A DNA stretch of 17,588 nt from assembly GCA_036939755.1 (NCBI GenBank), contig JALLAZ010000285.1:1-17588 (forward strand). Reading direction: 5' to 3'. The notes below the pieces were generated by a model, which was not told the origin of the DNA, searched no databases, and worked only from the letters and a program-made list of their open reading frames with translations. This document shows positions 5,471 to 17,308 of the stretch, in pieces (the first letter of the stretch is position 1; each line of letters begins with the position of its first letter). Source of the DNA: Stephanodiscus triporus (taxonomy: Eukaryota > Bacillariophyta > Thalassiosirophyceae > Thalassiosirales > Thalassiosiraceae). A program made the position numbers and the translations under genes.

Positions 5471-5693
5471 CTACCACCTTCTTCAATGATAAGCGATATT
5501 TAGCGATATCTGTATTCGTCGCGAAGATTCTCCAAAATAATTGGGGGATCTTCTGTCGTCTGGCCTGTGGCTCTTCTTGAAGGTGAAGATCGCGATCTTG
5601 AGACGGAGTTGGAGAGTTTGTTCCTTGCTGTTAGACCACTCATAATAATACACTCTTACTCCTGCTCTCATATCCCTACCCCTATTTGCAAAC
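5471..5693 (+). promoter_or_regulatory. 5' flank and leader of the light-harvesting gene
   Basis: This stretch lies directly upstream of the light-harvesting ATG. It holds an AGCGATAT direct repeat (about 5492-5510), an inverted CCAAT-like ATTGGGG at about 5541-5547 and a pyrimidine-rich leader (CACTCTTACTCCTGCTCTCA) ending about 20 nt before the ATG. There is no clear TATA box. Promoter function is inferred from position only. Confidence 0.35.
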
Positions 5694-6302
5694 ATGAAGA
5701 CCGCCGTTCTCGCTGCCATCATCGGCTCTGCCGCCGCCTTCGCCCCCGCCCCCGTGGCCAAGACCACCTCGGCCCTCAACGCCTTCGAGAACGAGCTCGG
5801 AGCCCAGCCTCCGCTTGGCTTCTTCGATCCCCTCGGCCTGCTCGATGACGCCGACCAGGAGCGATTCGACCGCCTCCGTTTCGTTGAGCTCAAGCACGGA
5901 CGTATCTGCCAGCTCGCCTTCTTGGGCCAGATCACCACCCGCGCCGGCTTCCACCTCTCGGGAGACATCGACTACTCGGGACACTCCTTCGACTCCTACC
6001 CCAACGGCATTGCCGCCCTCTTCGGCCCCGATGCCATCCCCACCGCCGGCTTCGCCCAGATCTTCGCCTTCGTTGGCCTCCTCGAGCTCGGCGTCATGAA
6101 GGACGTCACTGGCGAGAGCGAATTCGTCGGTGACTTCCGCAACGGCGCCATCGACTTCGGCTGGGATTCCTTCGACGAGGAGACCAAGCTCTCCAAGCGC
6201 GCTATCGAGCTGAACAACGGCCGTGCCGCCATGATGGGCATCCTCGGACTCATGGTTCATGAGGAACTCCACACCGTCCTCCCCGTCATTGGACAGGTGT
6301 AA
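5694..6302 (+). CDS. Fucoxanthin-chlorophyll a/c binding protein (Lhcf type)
   Basis: Plastid light-harvesting antenna protein that binds chlorophyll a, chlorophyll c and fucoxanthin in the thylakoid membrane and passes energy to the photosystems. The 202 codons are intronless. Residues 1-17 form a signal peptide ending in AAAFAP (13-18), the diatom ASAFAP-type plastid-targeting junction. The mature part has the three-helix LHC layout: helix 1 with RFVELKHGR (62-70, chlorophyll-ligating E65 and R70), helix 2 around AQIFAFVGLLELGV (121-134) and helix 3 with AIELNNGRAAMMGILG (170-185, ligands E172, N175, R177). Length is usual for Lhcf. Coding bases are strongly C-ending, as in highly expressed genes, in sharp contrast to the relics upstream. 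The ATG context is AAACATGAAG. Family certain; exact Lhcf subtype not resolved. Confidence 0.95.
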   Translation: MKTAVLAAIIGSAAAFAPAPVAKTTSALNAFENELGAQPPLGFFDPLGLLDDADQERFDRLRFVELKHGRICQLAFLGQITTRAGFHLSGDIDYSGHSFDSYPNGIAALFGPDAIPTAGFAQIFAFVGLLELGVMKDVTGESEFVGDFRNGAIDFGWDSFDEETKLSKRAIELNNGRAAMMGILGLMVHEELHTVLPVIGQV

Positions 6303-6689
6303 ATTATGCTAAATATTTCGTAGTGTATTAATGACCTTAATAGCAGAATAGAGTTGTTTCACGAGTTATATTAGGCTTCGTTTATTTGTGTGAACAATCT
6401 TGAGCACGACTACCTCTCCTCAGACAAACATTGTTTTTGTGGATACTGGGAAGACATAGAAATATGTGATAACTTAATGAAAGAGAGTTGTGAGAGTAAG
6501 TCAGTACTGCTAAGTATTGCATTCTACTGTGTTGAGATCCCTGGAGGCGAACGCATCTGTAACAACTAAAAATATGGACAATGCTTTCTTTAATGAGTGC
6601 AGGAGAAGATACAAAAAAGGACTCAAACTGCATCGACTGTATTGATGTACATATCTGTGAATTCATTGACATCGCGTTTTCGTCGCTCT
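6303..6689. other. Convergent 3' region between the Lhcf and SURF1 genes
   Basis: AT-rich sequence following the Lhcf TAA and the SURF1 stop, consistent with two 3' UTRs facing each other. I see no further gene. A minus-strand open stretch (6382-6672) resembles nothing. Confidence 0.5.
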
Positions 6690-7830
6690 CTATCTTCCCC
6701 TTGACAATAATTTCCTAGTCATAACTATCCCCGCGGAACTGAGTCCAAACCAGGTAAATGCATACCCCGCGTGTACCCCGGGCGATACCTTGAACTCGCC
6801 GACAAACTCCCGACTCGCCTTGGCGGGGAAGGAGGGCGGCGCACCTTTCCTCTCGACGGCGTCGATTTCCACGAAGAGGTACGGATGACGATCCGCGCCA
6901 CACGACGTCAGTTCCTCCATGGCCCGTCGATCCATCCACAGCAACCTCTTACATTCGGGCGTCGGGCGTCTGTCGTCGCCGCCGTTCCCTCGCCTGCCGC
7001 CCTCGAGACGAGAGGGGGGGGCGAACGTCCCCCCCGTTTCCGTGTTGGATTCCATCGCCGTCAATGTGACCGTGCCCCGAGGTCGTTCCCACGACGTGAC
7101 TATCTCGTATCGATTGTTGACGTAGTGACGCGGGATCCAACCTCGATTGATCCACACGACGGTGCCAACCTCGTTCGCGTCAATCGACGATGGAGATCGA
7201 ACGGCCTTCGATTTCGAATCGTACGATTCTCCCGCCTCCTCGCCCCGTTGGAGCCTCCCGAACCATCCTCGTATTATCCGCCCGGCCCCGCCCTCCTCCC
7301 CTCGGATGCCCGTCGTCGTCCTCCGTCGTCGAACGGCGTCGTCGCCGTTGTCGCCGTTGTCGTCGTCGTCGTCGTCATCGTCGTCCGATATGACGAACGG
7401 CGTCACGACAAGGTAACCCTGCGCGCTCGAGCTCATGCCTCCCCCCCCGCCTCGTCCCGAATTCGGACCCGACTCCGCCAGCGCCCCCGGTGGCGGACCG
7501 CGGGGGCCGATCAGCATTTCGTTCGCGTGTTGGAATTCTCCCCGGAGGCGCACCCGTCGGTAGCTCCTGGGTACGTCCGCGATCTTCGTCTTGGTCTTCG
7601 TCTTCATATCGACGGCGGCGTCTTCGTCGTCGTCGTTCCCCCTCGTCGTCCTCCACATGTCGAAATTCGGGAGAGGATCCATGCCGAGGTCGTCCTCCCT
7701 CTTCTTCACCATTTCCAACTTCTCGAAGTAACGTCGAGTCTGCCACGTCCCGAGTCCGAAGGTCAGGAGGCAAAGGGAGGAGAAGAAGGCCTTCCCGAGC
7801 GGTCCCCCCTCGCCGTTCTCGCCGCCGGAT

Positions 7831-7871
<41 letters not shown>

Positions 7872-8006
7872 AGACGAGGCGGCCACGCCGTCGGCGGCGG
7901 CGTAGCGCCGGGTGCGAATGCGAGGGGCTCGTCCGGGCGCTGCTGAGAGCGATGCCGATCCGAGACGTAGAAGGCGGTGGCCCGCGAGTTTGGTCGACGG
8001 TATCAT
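6690..8006 (-). CDS. SURF1: SURF1-like cytochrome c oxidase assembly protein
   Basis: SURF1/Shy1 is an inner-mitochondrial-membrane factor needed to build cytochrome c oxidase. The 438 residues start with an Arg/Ser/Ala-rich mitochondrial presequence (1-40). TM1 is at about 73-88 and is followed by GTWQTRRYFEKLEMV (86-100), the family's W-Q-R-R-x-x-K-x-x-M/L signature. Next come YRRVRLRGEF (149-158), GYLVVTPFVI (197-206), VVWINRGWIP (283-292) and TVTLTAMESNTETGGTFAP (312-330). LLWMDRRAMEE (355-365) and HPYLFVEID (374-382) follow, and HAGYAFTWFGLSSAG (412-426) lies in TM2. The protein is longer than the usual ~300 residues because of low-complexity inserts: 11 Thr (46-56), a KTKTKTK run, a Gly run and 9 Asp (208-216). 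The ATG at 8004-8006 puts the presequence at the N terminus. No intron is needed. It is divergent with the histone gene. Confidence 0.92.
7355..7386. repeat. Imperfect (GTC)n microsatellite coding for an Asp run in SURF1
   Basis: Triplet repeat GTCGTCGTC... with one CAT interruption. On the minus strand it encodes nine consecutive Asp inserted in the domain after GYLVVTPFVIS. Confidence 0.8.
7840..7872. repeat. (GTC)11 microsatellite coding for Thr11 in the SURF1 presequence region
   Basis: Eleven perfect GTC/GAC-type triplets, read on the minus strand as ACG codons (Thr 46-56), between the presequence and TM1. Confidence 0.85.
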
Positions 8007-8060
8007 GGTGAGGCGTGCGGCGTCCCCCCGTCCGGCTGTTCAGAAGAGAGGTTGTTGAGG

Positions 8061-8088
8061 CTTGAGTCGTGAGTCTTGAGTCGCGAGT
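8061..8088. promoter_or_regulatory. Tandem 14-nt repeat in the SURF1/H2B divergent promoter
   Basis: CTTGAGTCGTGAGT is followed directly by CTTGAGTCGCGAGT (one mismatch), 55-82 nt upstream of the SURF1 ATG. The TGAGTC core resembles bZIP half-sites, but regulatory function is only inferred from position and repetition. Confidence 0.35.
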
Positions 8089-8336
8089 TATCCTCCACGG
8101 TGGCGGAAGAATTTTGGCGGGGTCACAGGCGACGACCCAAGACATGACACCAAAGACGCGCCATCTTTTGTTGGGAACACCGAGCAACTTTTTTGTTGAC
8201 ATGACGTGCAACTCACTCTCATGCAACATCATACCATTTCGCCTGTGGTACCATAATATCATCATGATCCACCTTCACCATAGCTTCCAATGCTGGGCAA
8301 CAATGCTATCTAGAGTATCATTTTTTCGCATGCGCG

Positions 8337-8346
8337 CATATATATC
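8337..8346 (+). promoter_or_regulatory. Candidate TATA box of the H2B gene
   Basis: CATATATATC lies 106-115 nt upstream of the H2B ATG in the divergent 8007-8451 spacer. Distance and composition fit a core promoter with a leader of about 70-80 nt. Confidence 0.4.
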
Positions 8347-8451
8347 AGGTGAACCATAATCTACCATAATTCGCCCAACAACGACAGCAACAACAACCTA
8401 ACTCACGAAAAGAAAGTTCCCTCGACCAACAAAAATAATAATTAATCGATC

Positions 8452-9083
8452 ATGCCAACCTCGACCAAGAAGACCCCCCCGCCCGCCAAGGCCGTCAAGT
8501 CCGCCGCCGATCCTAAAGTCGCGAAGAAGAGGAAGTCGAAGTCGAAGTCGAAGTCGCCAAGGCTCAACTTCAGCACCTACATCTATCGCGTCCTGAAGGA
8601 GGTAAGTCGCTTTTCGTCGTGCGCCCATTTCGACCGCCGTGCGCCTTTCGTGCCGGTAGGTGTGCTTTACATTGGCGAAAAACCGCACCCCACGTCCCCC
8701 CCCCCCGACGACGTCCGCTCATCATTTCCCCCCCCTTCCCACCCCCTACAATTCGACAATTCGTCGCGTACGGTGCGCGCGCGCGAAACGACGCGAACGG
8801 ATGGCAGACCCATCCCACCATCGGCATCACGAAAAAATCCATGGGCATCATGAACGACTTCTGCATCGACATGATGGAGAGGCTCGCGACGGAGGCGAAG
8901 CAGGACCTCTCGATATCTGGGGGTGAGAAGACGCTGCGGGAATGGCACTTCAACACCGCGACGAAGCTCGTGCTACCGGGCGAGCTGAAGAAGCACGGGA
9001 TCGGCGAGGGGACCAAGGCCGTGCGCAATTACGCGATGAACAAGCCGAAGACGACGACCAAGAAGTCCAGCCCCAAGTTGTAG
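8452..9083 (+). CDS. Divergent histone H2B with one intron (exons 8452-8601 and 8808-9083)
   Basis: Core nucleosome subunit that pairs with H2A. Exon 1 gives a Lys/Pro-rich tail with KSKSKSKS and then the start of the fold, FSTYIYRVLKE. The donor GTAAGT at 8602 and acceptor GGCAG ending at 8807 give a 206-nt phase-0 intron. Exon 2 resumes THPTIGITKKSMGIMNDF and ends KLVLPGELKKHGIGEGTKAV plus a basic tail. The spliced product is 141 residues. IYRVLKE, HP-IGI, MGIMN-F, LPGEL-KH and EGTKAV are H2B hallmarks. The part between helix 2 and LPGEL (EAKQDLSISGGEKTLREWHF) does not match canonical H2B: the YNKR loop and the T-SREIQTAV stretch are replaced, with one extra residue. That and the intron point to a variant rather than a bulk replication histone. 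The two reading frames are joined by splicing, not by a frameshift error. Confidence 0.9.
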
Positions 9084-9105
9084 TGAATTTTTTTTGTTCT
9101 TCTTC

Positions 9106-9128
9106 GTGACGATGGGGAAAATCGTCGC
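9106..9128 (+). other. 3' UTR hairpin of H2B (candidate processing element)
   Basis: GACGAT at 9108-9113 pairs perfectly with ATCGTC at 9121-9126 around the loop GGGGAAA, extendable to 8 pairs with one G-T. It starts 23-25 nt after the stop codon, where replication-type histone mRNAs carry their stem-loop, but the sequence does not match the animal histone stem-loop consensus. Confidence 0.4.
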
Positions 9129-9155
9129 CCAACAAACGATCTCGGGGAGATGAGG

Positions 9156-9173
9156 CGACTGGTTTTCTAGTCG
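9156..9173 (+). other. Second 3' UTR hairpin of H2B, TTTT loop
   Basis: CGACTGG-TTTT-CTAGTCG: seven pairs including one G-T, with a four-T loop. The stem and loop sizes resemble a histone-type stem-loop (6 bp, 4-nt U-rich loop), although the stem bases differ from the metazoan consensus. Centred about 80 nt after the stop. Confidence 0.4.
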
Positions 9174-9566
9174 GAGAGGTGAATGTCCCTTTTTGGAATT
9201 AGGTTGGAATGTATGCACTGGGGCATCCACTCGATTATCTCTTACCTGTTAATACTATTCTAATGCATTTTTATCGACTCAGGTTTTTCACTCTATTGAT
9301 GTTGGATGGAGATTGGGTCATGGAACTACTTATTCCAATGGCTCTGGAGAAGAGTTGTTCGTTTGCTGAGCATGTTGTGCGAGGATGTCCCTTCCCTGCT
9401 AGTAGTGGACGTACAGCATCTGAAGCTTTCAAATATCAAATAGCAGACACTTCTATAATCACCGATTTTCATTCAACACAGATGCGAGCCATAAATGTCC
9501 CTTCACCAAATTGTGAATGATCCCATCGCCATCAGACAACTGCTGATCAATCTCACTCATAAGATG

Positions 9567-9627
9567 ACAGCAGCAGCAGCAGTAACAACAACAATACCAA
9601 CAACAACGGCAACAGCAAGGGCGCATG
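9567..9627. repeat. CAG/CAA-type trinucleotide repeat
   Basis: CAGCAGCAGCAGCAG followed by imperfect AACAACAAC and CAACAACAAC runs, in non-coding DNA between H2B and the four-pass membrane gene. Confidence 0.75.
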
Positions 9628-9849
9628 CATGGGAGGCAGAAATGCAGTGATTTTCAACATAAACAATGTATCATATTAATTAATATACGTCCAACAGATG
9701 AACGTCTTTGTTGAATGTTGGCGAGCTCCGACCAAAGCTTGTTCACATCCGAATCAGTAACAAGGCATCATACATATATCTAACACGAAGCTCTCCCCGT
9801 CCATGAAAACTCGAAGTTCCTTCTTTTATTTCATTCGCCGAATTTTCGA

Positions 9850-10995
9850 TCAACTCATTTGAATGTACGACCCCCCCCCCCCGTCCTCGCCTTCGTCACC
9901 ATTTCCCCCACCTCTACTGCCATTTTTACCCGCCTTCTTGGGGGGGGGGCTCTTCTCCTTCGTTCCGCCGTGCAACATCCACCTCTCGTAAAATTTCCAC
10001 CGTATCCAGTTCCCAAGAATCGACACCGCGGGGAATACGCCCCCGACGACGATCCAAAACGCCAATCGCGCCGTCTCCGCGTCCTCGTCGACGTACGCGT
10101 CGTCGACGACACGTACGCGATCGACGACGTAATAGCTCGCTAGGACGAGGAAGCAAACCCAGAAGATCGCGACGGCCAATACGCCCCGGCCGCGATCGCG
10201 TCGCCGCAGGATGGCGTTCCCGTCGCTCCCGTCGTCGTCGATGTCGTCGTCGATGTCGTCGTCCTCGCCCTCCCCCCCCACCCGGGACGGCAATCCGACG
10301 TACTTGGCGAAGCTCGCCCAGTCGGCCTCCAAATCCGCCTTGGGCTGCCCCGAGTACGGATATTTCGGCAATACGAGTACGCTGATCCTCTCCCGGGGAT
10401 ATCGGTGGTACACGCGCACCCTCTTGGTGACGATCCCGGCGAGCTGCGGTTGGCCCCCCCCCCCGCCGCGACGACGGCGCTCCTCGTAGTCGCACGCGGG
10501 GTGATTCGCCACGCGCCCGAGGTCGTACACGACGTGGCCGTAGTTGTTCCGGAGCGCGAATCCGTTCATGACCCACCCGCGCAGACGGAGGAGGGAATCC
10601 CCGACGGCGGCCCGCATCGTCGTCGTCGTCGTCGCAGTCGTCGTCCTGCTCCCGCCTTGGTCGTGGTAACTCTCCTCGTATTTAACGTCCCCCAGAACGA
10701 CGATGCCGTCCTTCTCGTACCGCGCGCTCAATCCCCGTCGCATCGGCACGAACCACAGCATGTAAACGACCAGGCACCCGAACGGCGGCAGCGTGGCGAG
10801 GTAAACGTACAGTATGTCCGTCAGCCGTATGCGATCGTCGGCGTACCTTGGATTGCTCGGATCCGCGATCGACGGACGCTCGTGCGCGAGGTAGAGGAAG
10901 TAGAGGTACACGCACAGCAATGGCACGGTCATGAGCAGGAATTGCAGGATCGAGCCGGAGGGCATGGCGAGGAGCGGGACGTTGGCCTCGGGCAT
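9850..10995 (-). CDS. Four-pass membrane protein of unknown function
   Basis: The 381 residues start at ATG 10993-10995, preceded on this strand by a run of 13 A. Hydrophobic segments are at about 15-36, 60-84, 271-291 and 309-330, giving a 2+2 layout. They bracket a soluble domain of about 185 residues with RGLSARYEKDGIVVLGDVKY (87-106), GFALRNNYGHVVYDLGR (145-161), KRVRVYHRYPRERISVLVLP (191-210) and YPYSGQPKADLEADW (212-226). A strand-rich domain between membrane pairs recalls DUF3592-type proteins, but that is only an impression. The texture suggests a conserved protein, probably diatom-specific; no catalytic motif is seen. Inserts of Thr (118-125), Gly (177-181) and Asp (245-255) are low-complexity. 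Two homopolymers (C-run about 9872-9884, G-run about 9941-9950) lie in the last 40 codons, so the exact C terminus depends on their length. Confidence 0.75.
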   Translation of the reverse strand: MPEANVPLLAMPSGSILQFLLMTVPLLCVYLYFLYLAHERPSIADPSNPRYADDRIRLTDILYVYLATLPPFGCLVVYMLWFVPMRRGLSARYEKDGIVVLGDVKYEESYHDQGGSRTTTATTTTTMRAAVGDSLLRLRGWVMNGFALRNNYGHVVYDLGRVANHPACDYEERRRRGGGGGQPQLAGIVTKRVRVYHRYPRERISVLVLPKYPYSGQPKADLEADWASFAKYVGLPSRVGGEGEDDDIDDDIDDDGSDGNAILRRRDRGRGVLAVAIFWVCFLVLASYYVVDRVRVVDDAYVDEDAETARLAFWIVVGGVFPAVSILGNWIRWKFYERWMLHGGTKEKSPPPKKAGKNGSRGGGNGDEGEDGGGGSYIQMS

Positions 10996-13230: not shown

Positions 13231-13746
13231 CGTAGAGACGCGATGACGTTTAGTGTAGACAATCGGTCGACCAAGCCACCGAGACCTAGCCTCTAGGCAA
13301 CGATGATTTGAGTCGCCTCCACAAATAAAACAGAAAGCTCGCCGCTGGCAAGTGCACAAGGCGCGCGACCCAAAAATGGCTGCGACTGGTTTTCTCCTTC
13401 CTCCCATCCAGCCGGCCGCCGATATGATAGGTAGATAGAGTACTTGAATTCCTCTGTTCGTAAGTGCAAAACAATACATGGTACCAGAGACTAAAAAAGT
13501 GAACGTACCAAGGGCCACGTCGTCATAAAAGTTCTTCATGAGTTTTCGGGGGAAGAACAATGACAATGCATGCACGCAAGTCGCCACACCAACATAAACC
13601 AACACAGCACCAACACCACGTTTCGCATCGCATCGCACACCTGAACCATAATTATAACACAACCAAACGAACGCAGCCAAGGCAAGGCTCTGGGAGATCG
13701 CCGTCGTCCCAAGCAAGGATAATAGTAGTTCGCCTCGCCATTCGCC
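13231..13746. promoter_or_regulatory. Divergent promoter region (SAM-like gene and Fuseless-like gene)
   Basis: The 516 nt between two outward-facing ATGs. There is no strong TATA box. It is open on the minus strand but the translation lacks family resemblance. The plus-strand ATG at 13747 sits in a good context, GCCATGGCG. Confidence 0.35.
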
Positions 13747-14541
13747 ATGGCGATGATGATGACGATATTCTCCTCGTCCACCCTCCCCGTCCAGGTCGCC
13801 ACGGGCGTGCTCTGCGCCTCCTACTGGCGAGGCGCGTGGTACATCCTCGACCACACCCTCTTTCCCGAAGACCGTCTCCTCTCCGGCGCGGCGTCGCTCG
13901 CGTCCGGCTCGATCCTGCTCGGCATGAAGCAGTACATTATAAGTCCGTCGTACAACGGCACGAAGCGACTCGTGCGCCTCCTCCCACCTCCCACGTCGAC
14001 GTCGTTGCGGCGGCATTACATCAAGACGAATCGATTCATCGTGCTCTACGGCATCGCGTCGGGTTGCATACTCGTGTGGAGAGGGACGTGGCTCCTTTGG
14101 GACGAGGCCGCGCACGCCACGGCCGACGCCATCGCTTCCTACGGGCGTCGTGGCTGGTCGTCGTCGTCGTCGTTGGCGGCGTCGTCGTCGTCGTCGTCAT
14201 CGCCATCGGCGCAAGCGGCGCCGAACGCCATGATCGCCACGGCCGCCATAACGACGAAATCCCCACCCAACCACCACCATCCCGATCATCATCATCATCA
14301 TCATCACGATATTCACCACGGCGAGTCCACCGTGACTCAGCACGAGGACATGGAGGGAAACGCCCTCTTCTACTCCGGCATCGCGTCTCACGTATTCGCG
14401 ACGGCCGGACTGCTGCTCATGGGACGGTTCGCGTGCGTCATGGCCCCGCCCGCGAACGTCACCATGGTTCGCGATTGCTTCATACACGGCGAGGGGAAGC
14501 TGTTCGCGAAGGCCGCGAGGAAATTCGCGTCCCACTCGTAG
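13747..14541 (+). CDS. Fuseless-like multi-pass membrane protein
   Basis: The 264 residues have hydrophobic segments at about 12-36, 44-65, 97-117 and 208-232. The tell-tale is WRGAWYILD (27-35) and, about 84 residues later, WRGTWLLWD (111-119). Each follows a hydrophobic run, so the N-terminal half is an internal duplication. The W-R-G-x-W-x-x-x-D signature is what I associate with the Fuseless family, named after a Drosophila presynaptic membrane protein; its role in a diatom is unknown. Between TM3 and TM4 lie a Ser run (138-152, TCG repeats) and a His-rich stretch (HHHPDHHHHHHHDIHH, 176-191), a possible metal-binding loop or merely CAT-repeat expansion. The last part (GRFACVMAPPANVTMVRDCF) is unlike repeat DNA and probably functional. 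It is divergent with the SAM-like gene. Family call moderate. Confidence 0.7.
   Translation: MAMMMTIFSSSTLPVQVATGVLCASYWRGAWYILDHTLFPEDRLLSGAASLASGSILLGMKQYIISPSYNGTKRLVRLLPPPTSTSLRRHYIKTNRFIVLYGIASGCILVWRGTWLLWDEAAHATADAIASYGRRGWSSSSSLAASSSSSSSPSAQAAPNAMIATAAITTKSPPNHHHPDHHHHHHHDIHHGESTVTQHEDMEGNALFYSGIASHVFATAGLLLMGRFACVMAPPANVTMVRDCFIHGEGKLFAKAARKFASHS
14158..14306. repeat. Two trinucleotide microsatellites coding for Ser and His runs
   Basis: TCG repeats (about 14158-14203) encode the Ser run and CAC/CAT repeats (about 14268-14306) the His-rich loop of the Fuseless-like protein. Confidence 0.8.
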
Positions 14542-15874: not shown

Positions 15875-17308
15875 CTAGATGGGCACAAAAGGCTTATCGA
15901 AGATGTCCATGCACTTCTTAAGCGTGCCGTGGCTTACCATGGAACCGAGGGCATCCACGATGATCCGCAGCGCCATCAACGATGTGATGTCGGCGTGGTC
16001 GTACGGGGGACTGACCTCTACGATCTCCATGCCGCACAGTCCCTCCTTAGCGACCAGCCCGACCAGCTTCAGCGCCTCGCGGGGGAGGAGGCCGCCGGGC
16101 TCGGGCCAGCCCGTGCCGGGCACGAACGCCGCCTCGATGGAATCGATGTCGTAGCTCATGTACACGGCGTCGCACCCGTCCCACGCCCGCTCCAGCGCGA
16201 TCTCGGCGACCTTGTCGATGCCGAGGGTCTCGATGTCGTCCATGGTGAAGATGTTCGTCTCGCGCTCGACCATGTTAGCAACGGCGGGACGGGGGACCTG
16301 CCACCCCCCGATGCCGATCTGTACGAGATTCTTCGGGTTGACGTTGGGCAGGTTCGTAGCGTGGAAGTACGGCGTGGTGTGCATCCGCTCGTCCAGGTCT
16401 TTCTCCTGAATGTCGGCGTGACGATCGACGTGGATGATGCCGATATTCTTTGAGGTGACGGATGCCAAACCTCTGACGGTGGGAAATCCAATCGAATGAT
16501 CCCTGTGGCAGGATGTTATGAATGTGCGAATAAGGATTGAGCAACGAGGCAGACGCACAGATTCGCAACATGAAAAGGTTTCAAATGGAAATATGCCGTC
16601 TTACCCTCCCAATATGATGGGCATGGTTCCATTCGATGCAATGTGAGCCACGGCGTTGGAAATCTGATCAAAACTTTTCTCGATGTTGGCAGGTATGGTG
16701 AAGACATCGCCAATGTCGCAGAGAGTCTGGCAAGAAGGTTTGTTGTGTGAGATAGTGGAAAATGTGCATTCGGCATCAAGAATGGATTTAGTGAACGAAA
16801 AGATATGCATATATCATAGAGGGAAAACCCAACTCACCATCTGCTCGCGCAGGTCGATGCCCTTCTCGTAATTGTACGGCGTGTACAGCGCCGAGATGCG
16901 CCGGATGCCCTGGGGACCGAACCTCGTCCCCGCGCGGTAGGTGCATCCCCCGTCGAACGGCACCCCCACCACCGCGACGTCGTAATTCCCGACGAGGCGC
17001 GAGTCCTCGATGTACGGCGCCTTGAGGAAGGTGTTGATCCCCGCGAAGTGCGGCAGCTCGCCCCTCGAGAACGTGGGGATCGTCTTGTCGTCGATGGAGG
17101 ACGCGCCGGGCAGGCCGTGCACGAGGGCCTCGGCGATCTCCCGATCGAAGTTCGTCCGGGGGATCTCGGCCTCCTTCAGGGCCGCCTTCCATCCCTTGGT
17201 GTTCGTGGGGTGGAACGGATCCGGGTGATGATGCCGCTTCTGCTGTCGGAGCAACTTCTGGGATAACCCCAGAGATCGCCTGGCTTGGTTGGTGGCGGCA
17301 GAAGACAT
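15875..17308 (-). CDS. Ureohydrolase, probable guanidine hydrolase (GdmH-like); exons 16838-17308, 16605-16726, 15875-16502
   Basis: Hydrolyses a guanidino group to urea plus ammonia or an amine. Splicing by GTGAGT...CAG (16837-16727, 111 nt, phase 0) and GTAAGA...CAG (16604-16503, 102 nt, phase 2) gives 406 residues. All six expected metal ligands are present: H200 in GGDHS, D224/H226/D228 in HVDRHAD, D316/D318 in YDIDSIE. Family members usually have DAH; here it is DRH (R225), and the last acidic position is Glu (E321). Other signatures are IPTFSRGELPHFAGINTFLK in the N-terminal extension, ALYTPYNYEKGIDLREQM (140-157), DERMHTTPYFHATN (235-248), GIGGWQVPR (261-269), GTGWPEPGG (327-335) and EVSPPYD (360-366). 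Together these match the cyanobacterial nickel-dependent guanidine hydrolase group (Sll1077 type) rather than agmatinase or arginase. Residues 1-27 are Arg/Ser-rich with no acid, so a mitochondrial presequence is possible. Family certain; substrate inferred. Confidence 0.85.

Follow-up and report, generated by a model that had tools for sequence, protein, structure and literature searches.

A candidate guanidine hydrolase of the GdmH clade encoded in a diatom nuclear genome, and its algal and bacterial relatives

The ureohydrolase-like gene on this contig raises the question of which substrate its product acts on, since homologues of the protein are named 'agmatinase' in databases whereas the initial annotation proposed a guanidine hydrolase related to Synechocystis Sll1077. 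The window, i.e. the whole stretch of 17,588 nucleotides that was analyzed, was used for the gene model; the spliced protein was then compared with characterized ureohydrolases, with bacterial loci and with algal homologues. Statements from the literature are taken from excerpts of the papers cited.

Gene structure and genomic setting

The gene and the other annotated features of the window are as follows.

17308-15875, minus strand: GdmH-like gene, three exons and two introns, 406-residue product, ATG at 17308, TAG ending at 15875
17231..17308, minus strand: residues 1-26, MSSAATNQARRSLGLSQKLLRQQKRH, with six Arg/Lys and no Asp/Glu
16838..17308, minus strand: exon 1, 471 nt, codons 1-157, holding the basic N-terminal extension, the TFSRGELPHFAGINTFLK block and Thr123
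16727..16837, minus strand: intron 1, GT-AG, 111 nt, GTGAGT...CAG, sequence-inferred
16605..16726, minus strand: exon 2, 122 nt, its last codons just ahead of metal ligand His200
16503..16604, minus strand: intron 2, GT-AG, 102 nt, GTAAGA...CAG, sequence-inferred
15875..16502, minus strand: exon 3, 628 nt to the TAG, holding His200, Asp224, His226, Asp228, Asp316, Asp318, His239, Trp330 and Glu360
5649-6302: chlorophyll-binding protein (light-harvesting type; chlorophyll a/b-binding type), Pfam match
6690-8039: SURF1, Pfam match
13729-14541: Fuseless family, partial match (36.9 bits, cut-off 25)

The coordinates given by the initial annotation proved exact, its two introns are borne out as sequence-inferred GT-AG introns, and the motifs it quoted (DRHAD, DERMHTTPYFHATN, GIGGWQVPR, GTGWPEPGG and TFSRGELPHFAGINTFLK) are all found in the spliced protein. 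Both introns contain stop codons in all three frames; their GC contents are 0.40 and 0.44 (introns 1 and 2), and those of exons 1-3 are 0.65, 0.48 and 0.61. The splice sites were inferred from sequence; homologues that are collinear over the full length, some of them transcript-derived (e.g. P0003, 88% identity at 100% query coverage), support them. Among nine other reading frames tested on the contig, three match a Pfam family.

Family assignment and active site

The spliced protein matches PF00491 with an E-value of 9.3e-78. Comparison with all PDB sequences reveals that its best relative is Synechocystis Sll1077/GdmH (7esr/7oi1; 533 bits, E = 3.5e-159), followed by the Nitrospira inopinata guanidinase (9fek; 520 bits), while the third family, proclavaminate amidinohydrolase (PAH), reaches only 170 bits. 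Sequence identity amounts to 63.7% with Sll1077 (361 positions) and 61.6% with the N. inopinata enzyme (362 positions), values close to the 66.9% found between these two guanidinases. The protein stays below the cut-offs of the curated NCBI agmatinase models (TIGR01230, 152.9 bits vs. a cut-off of 174.3; PRK02190, 204.4 vs. 302) and of the curated arginase model TIGR01229 (122.6 vs. 227.6 bits). We also built an 18-row ureohydrolase tree, in which PAH, guanidinopropionase, guanidinobutyrase, two agmatinases (7lol, 4dz4) and two arginases stand outside GdmH. The diatom protein lies inside the GdmH group of 11 rows with support 94/98, a value just short of the star mark of the tool in a tree that carries a long-branch warning; agmatinases, guanidinobutyrase and guanidinopropionase form a separate group (89/93). 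The phylogeny against GdmH, agmatinases, guanidinobutyrase and arginases proposed by the initial annotation as a check hence places the diatom protein with GdmH, apart from the rest.

Sll1077 (7esr, 7oi1) resembles the diatom protein over nearly its full length and has the same metal ligands, the same Thr, His, Trp and Glu residues and the N-terminal block. The diatom gene differs in being eukaryotic, with inferred introns, and in encoding a longer basic N-terminus; the cyanobacterial C-terminal extension is absent from its product, and Sll1077 does not belong to its closest clade. The N. inopinata guanidinase (9fek) is likewise described, in the excerpt of PMC11410670, as having an N-terminal and no C-terminal extension. 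The TFSRGELPHFAGINTFLK block to which the initial annotation drew attention in the N-terminal extension is indeed present; it is not peculiar to the diatom protein, being near-identical in both characterized bacterial guanidinases. Six of the seven positions counted in this block (79, 81–84, 87, 92) are near-invariant, the exception being Ser81, which is Ala in 74 of the 80 bacterial loci described below.

According to the excerpts of PMC11410670, the metal ligands of the N. inopinata enzyme are H182, D207, H209, D211, D299 and D301, the residues proposed for guanidine hydrolysis are T105, H222, W313 and E344, and Thr, His and Trp were required for calling a sequence a guanidinase. The diatom protein keeps all six ligands (H200, D224, H226, D228, D316, D318) and all four guanidine residues (T123, H239, W330, E360), so that the ten published residues are common to both enzymes; one numbering offset fits all ten. 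Thr123 (codon 16942-16940) corresponds to Thr105 of N. inopinata and to Thr97 of Sll1077, and the codon of Trp330 is 16108-16106. Among the best 120 homologues listed, which include bacterial rows and rows without organism name, Thr123 is found in 119, His239 in 118, Trp330 in 119 and Glu360 in 120. On the other hand, position 330 is Thr in all seven comparisons (PAH, guanidinopropionase, guanidinobutyrase, two agmatinases, arginase 5ynl and the diatom's own arginase). Position 123 is Ser in PAH, guanidinobutyrase and 7lol, Thr in guanidinopropionase 3nip and agmatinase 4dz4, and a gap in two arginase pieces; Trp330 is the sharper marker because Thr at 123 also occurs in some non-guanidinases. 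Agmatinase (SpeB), guanidinobutyrase, guanidinopropionase and PAH thus share the superfamily and the six metal ligands with the diatom protein but score at most 170 bits, have Thr in place of Trp330 and offer no residue aligned to Glu84 in the N-terminal block.

The membership in the Sll1077-type guanidine hydrolase family claimed by the initial annotation is borne out by the score gap, the residue criteria, the phylogeny and the genome context of the bacterial relatives (see below). Judged by its sequence, the 406-residue protein is a GdmH-clade ureohydrolase with the arginase fold that most likely uses a two-metal centre, for which nickel is predicted, to convert free guanidine into urea and ammonium. 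Purified Sll1077 hydrolyzed guanidine, and Sll1077 cell extract degraded guanidine and not agmatine (PMC8390497). The N. inopinata guanidinase produced only very minor amounts of urea from agmatine and, according to the excerpt of PMC11410670, urea could not be detected with methylguanidine (given as 'methylguanine' in the text but as methylguanidine in the legend), creatine, guanidinobutyrate or guanidinopropionate. By homology, guanidinium would enter a narrow channel and reach a pocket that Thr123 and Trp330 are predicted to narrow, keeping out agmatine and other guanidino compounds. A hydroxide bridging the two metals would then attack the guanidinium carbon, as in the characterized homologues, urea and ammonium would leave, and cleavage of the urea by urease would raise the yield to as many as three ammonium per guanidine. 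An AlphaFold model of the Cyclostephanos orthologue (30 sequences) has a mean pLDDT of 66.5 and a pTM of 0.65, with pLDDT below 50 in the segments that contain Thr123, His239 and Trp330; because of this low confidence, no inference on pocket geometry is drawn from it. The conservation of the ten guanidine-hydrolase residues suggests a probable capacity of diatoms and several related algae to degrade free guanidine to urea and ammonium.

Bacterial relatives, origin and spread among algae

The nearest named bacterial branch is formed by SAR324/proteobacterial GdmH-like proteins (L005–L084; L005 is 74.0% identical over 392 positions), and those compared share with the diatom protein an HHPD-like start of the conserved region. 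The bacterial loci considered are the best 80 of 550 confirmed relatives from a genome scan, 23 of which were scanned with Rfam. Of these 23, 18 (9/12 and 9/11 in two batches) are preceded on the same strand by a guanidine-I riboswitch, situated approximately 2.3–3.3 kb before the matched stretch in 17 loci and 0.13 kb before it in L062. Five scanned loci (L005, L006, L012, L025 and L079) gave no riboswitch at the gathering threshold, L005 and L025 having just 1.3–1.4 kb of upstream sequence; they include both SAR324 loci near the algal clade, L005 (1.4 kb upstream) and L006 (6 kb upstream). Neighbouring genes were read in two loci, L006 and L007. In L007, an ABC importer consisting of an SsuA-type binding protein, a permease and an ATPase is situated between the riboswitch and the GdmH gene. 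In L006 (SAR324 bacterium, 5968-9968), an ABC importer lies directly downstream of the GdmH-like gene on the same strand, and its binding protein scores 501.6 bits with the model TIGR03427 ('putative urea ABC transporter'), above the cut-off of 333.9. On the evidence of the riboswitches and importers, free guanidine is the substrate with the best support in the bacterial branches adjoining the algae. The diatom gene differs from these relatives in both respects, and also from the Nitrospira gene, which has a guanidine-I riboswitch and permease neighbours (PMC11410670, excerpt): the Rfam scan of the window gave zero matches, so that no guanidine riboswitch was found at the diatom gene. For a gene in the nucleus, such a riboswitch does not count among the defining traits.

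In a 46-row tree, 15 rows treated as algal form one clade (99/97); eight of these carry an organism name, the query included, and seven do not, having been picked by their place in an earlier 105-row tree, which likewise served to sort P0102, P0110, P0118 and other rows without organism name beside the clade. A wider group (100/99) unites the algal clade with SAR324 proteins and sequences without organism name. Alpha- and gammaproteobacterial proteins adjoin this group, and cyanobacteria and N. inopinata are found on the opposite side of the tree. A single clade of algae and cyanobacteria was rejected on the same 46 rows (p-AU 0.003, log-likelihood 43 lower), so that a link with the cyanobacteria by descent finds no support. 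The topology points to a gene of bacterial origin without plastid descent. When Vitrella and other rows were added, 17 ochrophyte, haptophyte, Tetraselmis and no-organism-name rows stayed together (96/97), and Vitrella (P0245) came out as a long branch outside the main algal clade, beside SAR324 and without resolution of its position; a single transfer is therefore supported for the ochrophyte-haptophyte set only. With Vitrella set apart, the ancestor of the gene would probably have reached the algae in one early transfer from a non-cyanobacterial bacterium.

The nearest named database protein, 95% identical along the entire query, is that of Cyclostephanos tholiformis, and other diatoms come next. 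Cyclostephanos is a freshwater centric diatom, and this closest match lends no support to the 'marine alga' of the initial annotation. At least 15 diatom genera (two by partial name) are represented among the 120 matches listed, with Thalassiosira exigua and Cyclotella homologues among them, and 12 of the 120 have either mmetsp as their source or a CAMPEP (MMETSP) name, which indicates transcription of the gene in several algae. The window is accordingly read as nuclear DNA of a diatom, and this one protein makes the Cyclostephanos/Stephanodiscus group its most likely source. The algal clade comprises diatoms, a brown alga, Phaeothamnion, a haptophyte, a Tetraselmis transcript and sequences without organism name. 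The transcript in question (P0070, from the green alga Tetraselmis astigmatica) falls inside the ochrophyte-haptophyte clade and may reflect contamination or a separate transfer. In the chromerid Vitrella brassicaformis, the GdmH-like protein (P0245) is encoded on a 669-kb contig.

The N-termini of the algal clade contain an HHP motif in 21 sequences and lack it in two more. Seventeen of the 21 have at most one acidic residue before the motif, and all have at least four Arg/Lys. Residues 1–26 of the diatom protein may thus possibly be a presequence that sends it to mitochondria. Short basic N-termini were also observed among the bacterial relatives compared, so that a mitochondrial address, though plausible, is a guess.

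Alternative readings and nitrogen metabolism

Taken at its word, the database name of the homologues would mean that the enzyme is a true agmatinase, converting agmatine to putrescine and urea in diatom polyamine and urea-cycle metabolism. Support for such a role comes from a Phaeodactylum tricornutum 'agmatinase' (Phatr3_J40880) that is up at night and reported alongside urease (PMC5156380, excerpt), from the agmatine ureohydrolase listed for the same species (PMC6356823, excerpt), both candidate orthologues, and from two members of the ornithine/arginine decarboxylase family (PF02784) encoded in the present genome, which make an arginine decarboxylase possible. We nevertheless consider this reading very unlikely: agmatinases 7lol and 4dz4 stand outside the GdmH group and have Thr at the position of Trp330, both curated agmatinase cut-offs (TIGR01230, PRK02190) were missed, agmatine is barely used by the characterized homologues (PMC8390497, PMC11410670, excerpts), arginine decarboxylase is listed as absent from P. 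tricornutum in the excerpt of PMC6356823, and the agmatine-deiminase family (PF04371), present at two places in the genome, could provide another outlet for agmatine if it is made. It is also very unlikely, given that all ten functional residues are kept and that the four guanidine residues recur in 118–120 of the best 120 homologues, that the algal branch kept the GdmH scaffold but shifted its activity to a different small guanidino compound, e.g. methylguanidine or hydroxyguanidine. The N. inopinata enzyme yielded no detectable urea from methylguanidine (PMC11410670, excerpt) and the riboswitches of the next bacterial branches point to guanidine, whereas the idea of drift draws on the fact that the characterized members come from a cyanobacterium and a comammox Nitrospira, 62–64% identical to the diatom protein, and on the two SAR324 loci nearest the algal clade, which gave no riboswitch at the gathering threshold.

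Since the closest solved relative is cyanobacterial, the gene might also be a bacterial contaminant or a plastid-borne gene from a cyanobacterium. Such an origin is contradicted by the two inferred introns, by the light-harvesting-type gene on the same contig and by homologues in 15 named diatom genera, the very features that uphold the description of the gene as 'truly nuclear' in the initial annotation. The plastid route is further opposed by the rejection of the algae-cyanobacteria clade (p-AU 0.003), in a tree whose algal rows without organism name were chosen after the earlier tree. We regard both versions of this explanation as highly improbable, and retain a guanidine hydrolase of the GdmH type as the most likely reading.

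Agmatinase is placed in algal nitrogen metabolism by the review PMC6356823 and the research paper PMC7542463 (excerpts). The former reports an agmatine ureohydrolase in P. tricornutum and none in T. pseudonana, with arginine decarboxylase in neither; the T. pseudonana entry fits oddly with the Thalassiosira exigua and Cyclotella homologues found here. A search of the partial genome with PF00491 yielded only the GdmH-like gene and one arginase, so that the 'agmatinase' of the diatom literature is likely to be this GdmH-type enzyme. The arginase is encoded on contig C1252 (L004:5240-5980, minus strand) and has 5ynl as its best PDB match. In the literature searched, mostly at title and abstract level, guanidine hydrolases are bacterial and no report of a eukaryotic one was found; Funck et al. 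2022 and the full guanidinase tree of PMC11410670, outside the scope of this search, may show algal members. The enzyme class and its biochemistry are already known, and it is the eukaryotic, non-cyanobacterial spread under the name 'agmatinase' that looks new. If the algal members work alike, one major group of primary producers would be able to use free guanidine or render it harmless, and this compound would be a candidate for linking algae and bacteria through organic nitrogen; the enzyme called 'agmatinase' in models of diatom polyamine and urea-cycle metabolism would then require a new name. A broader and tentative reading, which we hold at rather less than even strength, would combine these points: algae with red-derived plastids (diatoms, brown algae, haptophytes, possibly chromerids) would have acquired guanidine hydrolysis early, as a nitrogen trait and in a single event, from a donor resembling SAR324 or an alphaproteobacterium; the enzyme would be located in mitochondria, with the urea passed to urease, and the diatom urea-cycle 'agmatinase' would be a GdmH-type enzyme whose metabolite is free guanidine and not agmatine.

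The assembly searched for partner genes is partial (21.65 Mb), and the absence of a gene from it is weak evidence because, in addition, the search went exon by exon, ignoring introns, and only the best candidates were scored. With this reservation, the partial assembly gave no match for urease alpha (PF00449, TIGR01792) or for the nickel chaperones HypA, HypB and UreG; P. tricornutum has a urease (PMC5156380, excerpt). PF02492 matched seven stretches of the assembly. For the three compared at protein level (L085, L087 and a piece of L086), the highest scores were with CobW- or ZigA-type GTPase models, each of them under the cut-off, and the CobW-like L087 matched the HypB model weakly (28.3 vs. 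a cut-off of 121.2 bits); by eye, L091 resembles an SRP54-type GTPase and L088/L089 a CobW-like protein. Nickel chaperones are needed by Sll1077 (PMC9772407, PMC11271267, excerpts). The N. inopinata genome is described in the excerpt of PMC11410670 as being without them, and there it is likewise unclear how the guanidinase obtains its nickel; chaperones of the GhaA/GhaB (HypA/HypB) type are thus not universal in the guanidinase family. Contig C1102 (L092:907-3627) of the same assembly contains a 907-residue open reading frame with UreD (residues 199–412) and UreF (residues 649–838) regions, which apparently represents a fused urease accessory protein.
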